DNA of 64,000 nt from Pedobacter frigiditerrae (GTDB lineage Bacteria > Bacteroidota > Bacteroidia > Sphingobacteriales > Sphingobacteriaceae). Of this stretch, positions 5,538 to 9,151 are shown piece by piece (position 1 is the stretch's first letter; each line of letters opens with the position of its first letter). The position numbers and the translations under genes were made by a program. The DNA lies in NCBI RefSeq assembly GCF_004331645.1, contig NZ_SJSK01000007.1, positions 1-64,000 on the forward strand, given 5' to 3'. The notes under the pieces are model-generated. The model had not been told where the DNA came from. It searched no databases and worked only from the letters and a program-made list of their open reading frames with translations.

Positions 5538-5729
5538 ATGGGAAATTTTTTAGAATCATTAGGTGGGATTGTAGCTGGAGCTATTATCGCTACCGGCAGT
5601 GCATTGAGCACGGGTTGTGATGTTGTTACTTCAGCAGCATGTCAGGCTGGTAAAATTGTTTCTGACGTTGCAGAAGGGGTTGCATCAATTGCTGAGGATA
5701 AGTCAAAAAATGATAGACTTGGAAGTTGA
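5538..5729 (+). CDS. Small Gly/Ala-rich peptide (63 aa), unknown, bacteriocin-like composition
   Basis: 63 residues with an ATG start. The N-terminal half is hydrophobic and glycine-rich (SLGGIVAGAIIATGSALSTG), the middle has two cysteines (C27 in STGCD, C35 in SAACQAG), and the C-terminus is charged (EDKSKNDRLGS). That composition resembles class II bacteriocin precursors or small membrane-active toxins, but there is no Gly-Gly leader motif and no transporter gene nearby. A perfect 10-bp hairpin (5741-5765) lies 12 bases after the stop, so it looks like a monocistronic unit. It stands alone between two gene groups facing away from it. Function is not known; the bacteriocin idea is only from composition. 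Confidence 0.55.
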   Translation: MGNFLESLGGIVAGAIIATGSALSTGCDVVTSAACQAGKIVSDVAEGVASIAEDKSKNDRLGS

Positions 5730-5817: not shown

Positions 5818-6024
5818 TCATATGCAATTTTTATTCCTAGTAATCTCTAAAGCTTTAAGGTCAGAAAACCCTGGTAAAACTTCAGCTCTTCTTTGAGCTG
5901 CTTCAGCAAGCTCGCGGCTAGCATAAATTCCAATCACTTTGAAATCTTCTTCTCCAGGCAAATCATCATCAGTATGTGTGTGCCATAACAAAAATTTTTG
6001 TAAGCTGATTATATGAAACAGCAA
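5818..6024 (-). CDS. DUF7336-like small protein, possibly eroded
   Basis: 68 residues, with core KFLLWHTHTDDDLPGEEDFK followed by VIGIYASRELAEAAQRRAEV and LPGFSD. This is the pattern of the DUF7336 family (LLWHxH...EDxKxIGxYxSxExAxxA...PGF), which are short proteins of unknown function often found beside accessory genes. There is no ATG in frame; the best start is a TTG at 6024. The C-terminus (KALEITRNKNCI) is shorter than usual, so the gene may be decaying at both ends. It is divergent from the AbiTii gene at 6072, with 47 bases between them. Confidence 0.55.
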   Translation of the reverse strand: MLFHIISLQKFLLWHTHTDDDLPGEEDFKVIGIYASRELAEAAQRRAEVLPGFSDLKALEITRNKNCI

Positions 6025-6071: not shown

Positions 6072-6980
6072 ATGAAATTAATCAGTGATATTATAAATGA
6101 TCTTGTTGATGATCAGCTCCCAATCACCGTTGCGTTAAATAAGACTAAGATTTTGGCGACAAGAATTGGTAATCGAAACCTTTTAAATTGGGTGAACTAT
6201 GAACTTAAAGGTTATCCTAACAGAGAATCATTGCCAGAATATAGGATAACAAACGGTACGATAATTGGCGATTTTGTAAACGGGAGGCACCAAGTCACAA
6301 ATTATCCTATTCCTTTGCCTGAATTCGGTGATGGTATGGATGATCAACTTCGGGAATTTCGATTTTTGGAAAGTGCTGCTACCTTGGAATTGTTTTCGAA
6401 AAATGAAAATCCCAGTCTGGTATTTCGGTTTCCAGAGCAATTGAAAAACTCACTTGAAGATATTTTAAGAAATACAAATGGCCCATATTTTCAATTATTA
6501 AACATTGGTGTAACAATTCCCATCCATATTGCCGCCCAGGCTTTGTCTGCGACAAAAGATAAGCTCCTGGAGTTTATGTTGGGAATAGAAAAAGAATTTG
6601 GGGTTGAAACAGAAATATCAGAATTAAAGAGTAACAATGCTAAAATTAATTATATTATGAACAATACTATAACAAATAACGGTGATGGTAACGTGGTTAA
6701 TGCCGGTGCCAATTCATCGATTAGTGCCATTATAAATATCACCAAAGGCAATAAAGAGCAGTTGGTACAAACGCTGAAGGACAGTGGAGTGGAAAATGAC
6801 GACGTAGCAGAATTGCTCACAATAATAGATTCGGAACAACCAGTAAATAATGGTTTTGGAATTAAGGTGAACGAGTGGATGAAAAAAATGCTTTCAAAGT
6901 CGCTAGATGGAACTTGGCAGGTTGGAATTGGAGCAGCTGGTACTTTACTCGCAGAAGCTCTTAAGGCGTATTATGGTTAG
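6072..6980 (+). CDS. AbiTii-domain protein (abortive-infection type), long form
   Basis: 302 residues. The first ~190 match the AbiTii domain (PF18864): IINDLVDDQLPITVALNKTK followed by ILATRIGNRNLLNWVNYELKGYP and LPEYR. The hallmark is the W-[VL]-x-x-E-L-x-G-Y core with the downstream L-P-x-Y-R. A low-complexity, Asn/Gly-rich joint follows (NNTITNNGDGNVVNAG), then a C-terminal module ending GTWQVGIGAAGTLLAEALKAYYG, a tail I associate with bacterial defence proteins. AbiTii domains are linked to phage abortive infection, but the biochemical activity is not established. It converges on a second AbiTii gene, stops 5 bases apart. No nuclease or membrane segment is visible. Confidence 0.8.
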   Translation: MKLISDIINDLVDDQLPITVALNKTKILATRIGNRNLLNWVNYELKGYPNRESLPEYRITNGTIIGDFVNGRHQVTNYPIPLPEFGDGMDDQLREFRFLESAATLELFSKNENPSLVFRFPEQLKNSLEDILRNTNGPYFQLLNIGVTIPIHIAAQALSATKDKLLEFMLGIEKEFGVETEISELKSNNAKINYIMNNTITNNGDGNVVNAGANSSISAIINITKGNKEQLVQTLKDSGVENDDVAELLTIIDSEQPVNNGFGIKVNEWMKKMLSKSLDGTWQVGIGAAGTLLAEALKAYYG

Positions 6981-6985
6981 TCACG

Positions 6986-7690
6986 TCATTGCTTTTTCTG
7001 TAAATTAATTTTTGATTTGTCACCAGTATTACTGACGTTTTGATTGCCATTGTTGACTATTTTGTTTTTAATATAGTTGTTTATGATTTGGTTGTTCAAT
7101 TCTTGTTTGTCTTTAAATGTGGAAATTTCAATACTATAACCGAACTTTTCAGCAATATCTGTAGCAAATGCCAGTAGTCTATACCTTACTGTACTAACGA
7201 TCTGCATTGTTAATGTTGGGTTACCACTTATCATGGCGGCAGTAGGGGTAAGACCTTGATTAGAAATTTTATCTACTGCTTTCTTTACATAAGCTAGCAT
7301 ACCAGGAGGTACTGGCGTGCCTAGCGAGCTAGAATTATCGACAATTTCTTTTGCCGCCATAGCTTCAATAATTCTAATACCTTCTGTCATTTTTACGTAT
7401 TGTAACTGAGTGTCAAACGGTGCTTCCAAATTGGAAATTGGGAGTTCAAATGTTGTACTTTCATAACCCTTTTGTAAAACCACAGTTAATTTTGCTATCG
7501 TCTGTCTATATTTTGGAGGTGTTTCTCCTTTATATCCATTAATCTCGAGCTCCGTAAATCGAAGCAATTTTTCATTTTTTACCAATCTTGAGAAATAATT
7601 CAGCTTTAATAGAGGGATTTCTAGAGAATTATTTCCATTTAGAAGATCTTCGATTACTTGTTGCAAAAGGAATGTGTAATTATCATTCAT
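6986..7690 (-). CDS. AbiTii-domain protein, short form
   Basis: 234 residues. The domain matches the neighbour at 6072-6980 by pattern: VIEDLLNGNNSLEIPLLKLN, then LLRFTELEINGYKGETPPKYR (the E-L/E-I-x-G-Y and P-x-Y-R core). It ends in the same Asn/Gly joint (NNYIKNKIVNNGNQNVSNTG) but stops just after it (DKSKINLQKKQ), so it lacks the C-terminal module of the long form. The two are diverged paralogues rather than a recent duplication. Their convergence suggests they may work as a pair, with one possibly modulating the other. Cytoplasmic, no signal peptide. Confidence 0.75.
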   Translation of the reverse strand: MNDNYTFLLQQVIEDLLNGNNSLEIPLLKLNYFSRLVKNEKLLRFTELEINGYKGETPPKYRQTIAKLTVVLQKGYESTTFELPISNLEAPFDTQLQYVKMTEGIRIIEAMAAKEIVDNSSSLGTPVPPGMLAYVKKAVDKISNQGLTPTAAMISGNPTLTMQIVSTVRYRLLAFATDIAEKFGYSIEISTFKDKQELNNQIINNYIKNKIVNNGNQNVSNTGDKSKINLQKKQ

Positions 7691-8098: not shown

Positions 8099-9151
8099 TT
8101 AGTTATTGTTTAACTGTTTAAGCAAGTTCATGATTTCTAATGGTTCTGAATAAATTTCGCATTTGTAATAAGAGGTACAATCAATGGGCTTTGATTTCAA
8201 GAGGTGATGAAACTTCTTTTCAGTGAAAAAGTAGTCTGCATAACCAACACCAATACAGGAATGGGAAAGGTCATAAAAGTCATTCTTATGGACTTTTCTT
8301 GATATTTCAATGTTTATTGCAGCGTGTATAGCAGAGTGAAGGTAGAGAAATGGTGCATGCGTACGATAAAGTGGCAAATGCTTTACTGGATCAATTTGGC
8401 CAATTGGGCTATGCTTAAGTATGTTTTTTAGGGGTTCAATTTGAGATTTTAAACCTTGTATTAAGAGCCCTTTATAGTTATGGGGAGATGTATCTATTTG
8501 CTTCGTGTCATTCATTATTTGGGCAAACTGTTCGGAAGCATCATAGAAATCCCCATCGGTTTCCTTTAAGTATTCCTCTACTGTCATCCCTGATATAGAG
8601 TCGTATAAGAGGTTGAAAAGAAGGTTTGGCTCGTCTTCAAGCTTCTTGAATGTCATTGCAGTCAGAAACCTATTTGCTTCGTATACTGAACTTAGATGAT
8701 AATTTTCTATAGGCTGTTTGCCTACAGAAATTCGGTCGATATTGATGAATTCAAGGGAACAAGCATTAAGGCCATTTAGTATAACAGTTATCTTAAGCTT
8801 ATCCATTAATGAGGCTGTTTTTAATTTCTTCTCCAACGGCATCTTTTCGATTTCGGTCAAAATTGAATCCGACACTACGCAGGCTACCTCAGCTTTTTCT
8901 GTTAATTGAATTAATTGGTGGTAAATGTTCTTATATAGTATCTTCTGCTCTTGAGCCATCGATGTAGTTTCATTGTCTAGCACAATTCTAAAGCTGATCC
9001 AATACTTCATATCGATGAAAATCAATTTTTTGCCACGCACTTCTTCATAAGGTCTTTGTCGCATAATCTCGGCAAATGCTGCTCTTGGCAAATGATGGAT
9101 GCCGTTGGTGTCTAATATAAAAGCTTGTACTTCTTCCTCGGAATAACGCAT
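8099..9151 (-). CDS. PIN-like domain protein
   Basis: 350 residues without a signal peptide. Acidic residues fall in PIN-type context: an early KLIFIDMKYWISFR (Asp after a beta-strand), a middle VVSDSILTEIEKMP, and a late NDFYDLSHSCIGVGYADYFF followed by TEKKFHHLL. The last is the usual 'D-h-x-H...YAD-hFhTxxxx' end of PIN-like metal-dependent RNases. The N-terminal ~40 residues (EEEVQAFILDTNGIHHLPRAA) and the helical middle are not assigned. Stand-alone PIN-like proteins occur in toxin-antitoxin and other defence loci. No antitoxin partner is adjacent; the AbiTii pair lies ~400 bases downstream. Good fold guess, untested activity. Confidence 0.55.
   Translation of the reverse strand: MRYSEEEVQAFILDTNGIHHLPRAAFAEIMRQRPYEEVRGKKLIFIDMKYWISFRIVLDNETTSMAQEQKILYKNIYHQLIQLTEKAEVACVVSDSILTEIEKMPLEKKLKTASLMDKLKITVILNGLNACSLEFINIDRISVGKQPIENYHLSSVYEANRFLTAMTFKKLEDEPNLLFNLLYDSISGMTVEEYLKETDGDFYDASEQFAQIMNDTKQIDTSPHNYKGLLIQGLKSQIEPLKNILKHSPIGQIDPVKHLPLYRTHAPFLYLHSAIHAAINIEISRKVHKNDFYDLSHSCIGVGYADYFFTEKKFHHLLKSKPIDCTSYYKCEIYSEPLEIMNLLKQLNNN

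Follow-up and report, generated by a model that had tools for sequence, protein, structure and literature searches.

The nearest named system to the gene pair described here is AbiT of Lactococcus lactis (abiTi/abiTii), likewise a two-gene system with an AbiTii-domain protein. The 2002 AbiT paper is said to describe AbiTi as 127 aa long with an essential hydrophobic C-terminus and AbiTii as 213 aa long; we take this to be a short AbiTii adjoining a protein whose tail resembles an output part. Phages that escape AbiT have been reported with mutations in capsid or early genes. Among abortive-infection systems AbiT is an old one, and its mechanism was still termed unknown in 2023 (PMC10286901). 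The AbiTii domain is described in PMC3710099 as an alpha+beta fold with a conserved glutamate, and the AbiTii-HEPN fusions treated there (c2405 and Ymh families) carry an AbiTii head before a C-terminal output domain. A different kind of likeness is offered by the bacterial amyloid signalling motifs (BASS), which were found via a motif common to neighbouring proteins; in the Bell effector/NLR pairs of that group, neighbouring proteins share one short motif (PMC8086366), as they do here.

Two AbiTii genes have been identified tail to tail in the window, which is the whole 64,000-nucleotide stretch of Pedobacter frigiditerrae DNA that was analysed. The long gene (6072-6980, + strand) encodes 302 aa, with an AbiTii head at residues 1-197, an Asn/Gly joint at about 198-214 and a C-terminal module, here called the C module, at about 223-302. 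The short gene (6986-7690, - strand) encodes 234 aa, with an AbiTii head, the joint at about 209-225 and a poorly conserved tail of 11 residues; 5 bases (6981-6985) separate the convergent stop codons. The original prediction had described this layout, with the joint in both proteins and the short one stopping just past it, and the ORF coordinates and the Pfam and PADLOC matches bear it out; the C module is present as claimed, though at about 80 residues it is slightly smaller than the ~100 suggested. Unlike the AbiT proteins, both window proteins have an AbiTii head and share a joint, and their genes lie on opposite strands.

Both proteins belong to the AbiTii family. Against Pfam PF18864, with a cut-off of 27.6 bits, the long protein scores 117.6 bits (E 9.7e-34) and the short one 78.9 bits (E 7.5e-22), and the PADLOC AbiTii model matches both (E 1.1e-32 and 1.1e-25, respectively). 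They are the only AbiTii genes above cut-off in the 5.8-Mb genome, and they are 29% identical over residues 3-218. The core motifs E-x-x-G-Y and P-x-Y-R were located by alignment in both, at E44, G47, Y48, P55, Y57 and R58 in the long protein (aligned with 20 relatives) and at E49, G52, Y53, P59, Y61 and R62 in the short one; the Trp that had been included in the predicted core is W40 of the long protein, and it is not conserved in the short one (FTELEINGY). E44 and E49, within E-x-x-G-Y, are invariant across the alignments and would presumably be the glutamate meant in PMC3710099. No terminator-like site is predicted between the convergent stops, and promoter and terminator scans of the region gave scores at shuffle level. 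We read the pair, with about an even chance of being right, as a mobile cassette of two AbiTii genes whose products assemble through the joint, the short protein being a regulatory or second sensing subunit of the long effector.

With its flanks, the joint lies at 6645-6737 (+) in the long gene, INYIMNNTITNNGDGNVVNAGANSSISAIIN, and at 6992-7084 (-) in the short gene, INNYIKNKIVNNGNQNVSNTGDKSKINLQKK; the joint sequences themselves are TITNNGDGNVVNAGANSSI (long) and KIVNNGNQNVSNTGDKSKI (short). These matched a 31-column joint profile at E 1.4e-9 and 1.7e-9, respectively. Since that first profile included joints from non-AbiTii neighbours, it was rebuilt from AbiTii joints only and run on 26 genomes; the rebuilt profile matched the window joints at E 3.6e-11 (long) and 3.0e-10 (short) and recovered the non-AbiTii neighbours in L054, L061, L063 and L102. 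In 17 whole genomes, the 31-column profile gave 36 matches at E <=0.1, all of them within AbiTii/joint clusters, and it detected no further joint copies in the window's genome outside the pair. In 18 genomes with no AbiTii match the rebuilt profile gave a single match under E 0.1, to a joint and C-module protein in L187. Across the seven convergent-pair shorts, mean pairwise identity is 58% in the joint and 48% in the head, a modest excess and not an exceptional one, being matched by 47 of 173 head windows; identity in their final nine residues drops to 11%. The joint is thus still conserved in short proteins although nothing follows it; decay would be expected of a linker with nothing left to link, and the joint has not decayed.

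The AF2 models have a mean pLDDT of 81 (long) and 82 (short) and predict confident alpha+beta heads, with the joint unstructured in both monomers (pLDDT under 50; residues 204-219 in the long one). Foldseek found no usable match to the long model in the PDB (best E 0.94), and VIA-align Z scores peaked at 5.8 (long) and 4.7 (short), within that tool's unspecific range. The disordered state of the joint in the monomer models, together with the occurrence of one short Asn/Gly-rich motif in neighbouring proteins with unrelated heads, is what one would look for if the joint signalled by templating, in an amyloid-like manner, and did not form a stable oligomer interface; a triggered short protein would then seed the joint of the long one, as happens in Bell/NLR pairs. 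We regard this as distinctly improbable: Asn/Gly composition by itself proves nothing, no NLR/STAND gene is seen adjoining the pair, and the Pfam scan of the window pair's neighbours found no NLR-type partner.

The C module of the window (6735-6977, +; about 80 aa) was delimited by alignment, genome searches and the AF2 model, which predicts four helices in it (228-237, 242-254, 264-279 and 286-301). Solo long AbiTii proteins (PF18864) share head, joint position and C module with the window's long protein, and genome searches also found the module behind a non-AbiTii head in other genomes. It has no family name in Pfam, NCBIfam or PADLOC and no convincing structural match. By its position, and by likeness to the AbiTii-HEPN fusions (PMC3710099), whose order of domains is that of the long protein, it may be the output or effector part. 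Unlike the tails of those fusions, it matches no HEPN model: the long protein has no Pfam match besides AbiTii, and no Arg and no His occurs in residues 223-302, which leaves no R-x4-6-H motif. A strongly hydrophobic C-terminal helix was also considered for the long protein but not supported, as its most hydrophobic 18-mer sits in the head; membrane insertion of this protein is therefore not claimed. PHROG 16090 (123 aa, of unknown function) spans the joint and C module. Its standing as a stand-alone phage module is doubted, since a 123-aa ORF in a viral contig, L129:803-1174(+), proves to be the end of a long AbiTii gene whose frame is broken; PHROG 16090 may be a family of fragments.

The joint also occurs in non-AbiTii proteins neighbouring AbiTii genes: one of 119 aa (L054), two of 206 and 230 aa (L061), and others of 305 aa (L063), 359 aa (L071) and 210 and 201 aa (L102). 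Several of these have been called winged-helix-like, which is a reading of their sequences, weak profile matches of that kind being found only for the 230-aa and 201-aa proteins. A winged-helix-like head (the "ENQCKNLD..." type) followed by joint and C module, with no AbiTii domain, is encoded at L061:4481-5101(-), L102:6164-6796(-) and L187:1201-1821(+); it adjoins another joint protein in L061 and L102 and is solo in L187, whose genome has no AbiTii match. The L187 protein is a true relative. In the same L061 and L102 clusters, a second winged-helix-like protein bears the joint and has a C-terminal helix that is strongly hydrophobic (L061:5107-5799(-) and L102:6817-7422(-)); for the L061 copy, PADLOC gives a weak match to its candidate PDC-M14B that covers joint and tail (E 6e-4). 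L063:4723-5640(-), the divergent neighbour of a long AbiTii gene, combines a winged-helix-like head and joint with a different C-terminal domain, and L071:6158-7237(-), the 359-aa protein, is of no known family, lies between convergent AbiTii genes and ends in the joint.

PF18864 was scanned in samples at genus, family, order and phylum level. The counts refer to these sampled genomes, whose clusters are few in number and almost entirely from Bacteroidota. AbiTii was above cut-off in 9 of 145 genomes of the genus, and 8 of those 9 have at least two adjacent copies. The tail-to-tail long/short pair was found in 8 genomes, 6 of Pedobacter (including the window) and 2 of one Mucilaginibacter-type genus; named relatives carrying it are P. 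frigidisoli, P. hiemivivus, Pedobacter sp. L105 and Mucilaginibacter. The gap between the stops is +5 bases in the window, +20 in L055, L064 and L090, +9 in L056, +2 in L057, +3 in L058 and -4 (an overlap) in L060; L064 and L090 are nearly identical pairs from two genomes of one genus. The short gene is conserved among the convergent-pair loci. The AbiTii genes of L071 are convergent as well, but with one gene between them, and L054, L059, L070 and L092 have long/short pairs in tandem. In L057 a third AbiTii copy (L057:5471-6385), broken by a stop into two ORFs, lies beside the convergent pair and is the remnant of a long gene.

Comparison of the flanks (~5 kb) at seven pair loci turned up no homologous genes, with two exceptions: one pair of 95/105-aa ORFs, and an extra AbiTii copy adjoining two of the pairs. 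Because the flanking genes differ among the loci, the pair moves as a unit, and since the long/short layout recurs in other genomes amid different flanks it is not due to chance. The original prediction had named rare adjacency elsewhere as something that would refute it; the outcome speaks in its favour, with a recurrent pair, convergent at 8 loci, that behaves as a mobile unit. One might still suppose that two independent defence genes merely accumulate in the same islands, AbiTii genes being mobile and common on plasmids and defence genes being known to cluster. This seems very improbable, as it accounts neither for tail-to-tail order at -4 to +20 bases across 8 loci (seven were compared for their flanks, which are unrelated), nor for a joint profile without matches elsewhere in the same genomes, nor for the dependence of short on long genes described below.

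AbiTii genes occur widely on conjugative plasmids, where their products are listed as hypothetical proteins; long-type relatives so annotated were found on plasmids of Klebsiella, Aeromonas, Serratia and others, and long-type relatives also occur in viral contigs. The scan found no short-clade relatives in viral contigs, tblastn of the joint with C module, and of the head, gave no match in phage records, and a search of plasmid DNA with the region gave none.

In a maximum-likelihood tree of AbiTii heads (50 rows), the short protein of the window falls in a clade of 13 rows with support of 100/100, and well-supported branches force at least five changes involving the module-less state. The roles are swapped in L070 and L092, where the module-bearing protein is in the window-short clade and its module-less partner outside it; three other proteins of the short clade, in L088, L089 and L091, carry the module and lack any AbiTii neighbour. 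When the window is compared with L060, dN is 0.27 for the short gene and 0.20 for the long, with dS saturated. By these sequence comparisons, the short protein represents an old separate clade under purifying selection and is not a recent truncation. The term "truncated paralogue", used in the original prediction, thus says too little of the short protein, given the age of the clade, the purifying selection and the two role swaps. It is hardly credible that the short gene is a decaying duplicate, a copy persisting by chance after losing its module. Module loss beside a full copy would be an easy route to the layout, and L057 does hold a broken extra long copy; the partners, however, come from old separate clades rather than from recent duplication, dN is low where dS is saturated, the joint has been retained, the pair survives amid new flanks, the tree requires at least five changes of state, and joint-ended shorts are never alone.

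In genome scans, all 13 joint-ended shorts adjoin a module-bearing gene and none was found alone. Twelve of these neighbours are AbiTii longs, and that in L061 is the winged-helix-like head with joint and C module. The reverse does not hold: 20 of 32 long loci in the scans lack a short, and no module-less partner was seen at the solo long loci examined. Fisher p for this asymmetry is 0.0001, or 0.014 with the shorts collapsed to five origins, values that serve as guides only, the genomes being sampled and the rows related. The rule covers joint-ended shorts only; an AbiTii protein with neither joint nor module can stand alone, as does the 171-aa one of L083.

A short protein without a module whose module-bearing neighbour is always present would suit an antitoxin-like control, in which the long protein is toxic alone and the short one binds and silences it until phage infection removes the short, and separate convergent genes would permit their unequal expression. 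We think this unlikely. With 20 of 32 long loci lacking a short, a solo long gene must be tolerated, and, among the AbiT pairs tested in PMC3985639, the toxicity of C. catus AbiTi was not neutralised by AbiTii, and the lactococcal AbiTii proved non-toxic in E. coli; the many solo long genes and the lack of antitoxin activity against the C. catus AbiTi both weaken the antitoxin reading. Nor do the genes form the co-directional, co-transcribed operon typical of type II toxin-antitoxin systems, since they converge both in the window and at the seven other pair loci.

In the joint-assembled cassette, the long protein would be a complete unit, with a sensing AbiTii head, a joint for protein-protein contact and a helical C module delivering the output; the short protein would be another AbiTii head, of ancient divergence, with the joint retained and the output module lacking. 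The two would assemble via the common joint, and the short protein would set whether or when the C modules of the long one meet, either by regulating it or by serving as a further sensor for a single output. Some trigger derived from a phage might then release or cluster the C modules, and the cell would be stopped. What is inferred here is that the two proteins assemble by way of the joint, that the short one regulates, that a phage acts as trigger and that the output is toxic; the same goes for the two-part abortive-infection switch suggested in the original prediction. The disorder of the joint in both monomer models counts against such an assembly. As long proteins are often solo, the short one is not required for function in general.

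A broader proposal, which we advance tentatively and with the balance somewhat against it, makes the Asn/Gly joint the pairing tag of a modular defence chassis that accepts different heads (several AbiTii clades, the winged-helix-like proteins and the 359-aa protein), module-less sensors signalling to a single output protein by joint contact or templating; usually one protein per cluster bears the C module. If so, the window pair, made up of AbiTii proteins alone, would represent in its simplest form an as yet unnamed family of multi-sensor abortive-infection systems. With a common joint, a module-less partner always adjoining a module-bearing protein, and roles that are interchangeable, the pairing rule reduces the mechanism to two questions -- whether the joint unites the proteins, and whether the short one controls the C module of the long one -- and the pair hints at how a poorly understood phage-defence family might be switched on.

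As the original prediction supposed, the long/short AbiTii pair has no name in the libraries and open-licence papers searched. A PADLOC scan of eight genes of the region found nothing besides AbiTii and no AbiTi-like gene, though PADLOC may lack an AbiTi model. The PIN-like and DUF7336-like neighbours that had been pointed out do have matches, but weak ones, below the curated cut-offs: the 350-aa protein at 8099-9151(-) resembles the PIN-family toxin model TIGR00305 (E 0.0022), and the 68-aa ORF at 5818-6024(-) resembles DUF7336 (E 0.007). Since flanking genes are not common to the pair loci, these two are not considered part of the unit. The 63-aa Gly/Ala-rich ORF at 5538-5729(+) has no match. 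On the Enterococcus faecium plasmid pW47, a module-less AbiTii gene of 208 aa shares 8 bases with a gene for a 192-aa protein that has an N-terminal hydrophobic stretch (L197:2492-3689(+)); both are annotated as hypothetical proteins, and this gene pair may be closer to AbiT.
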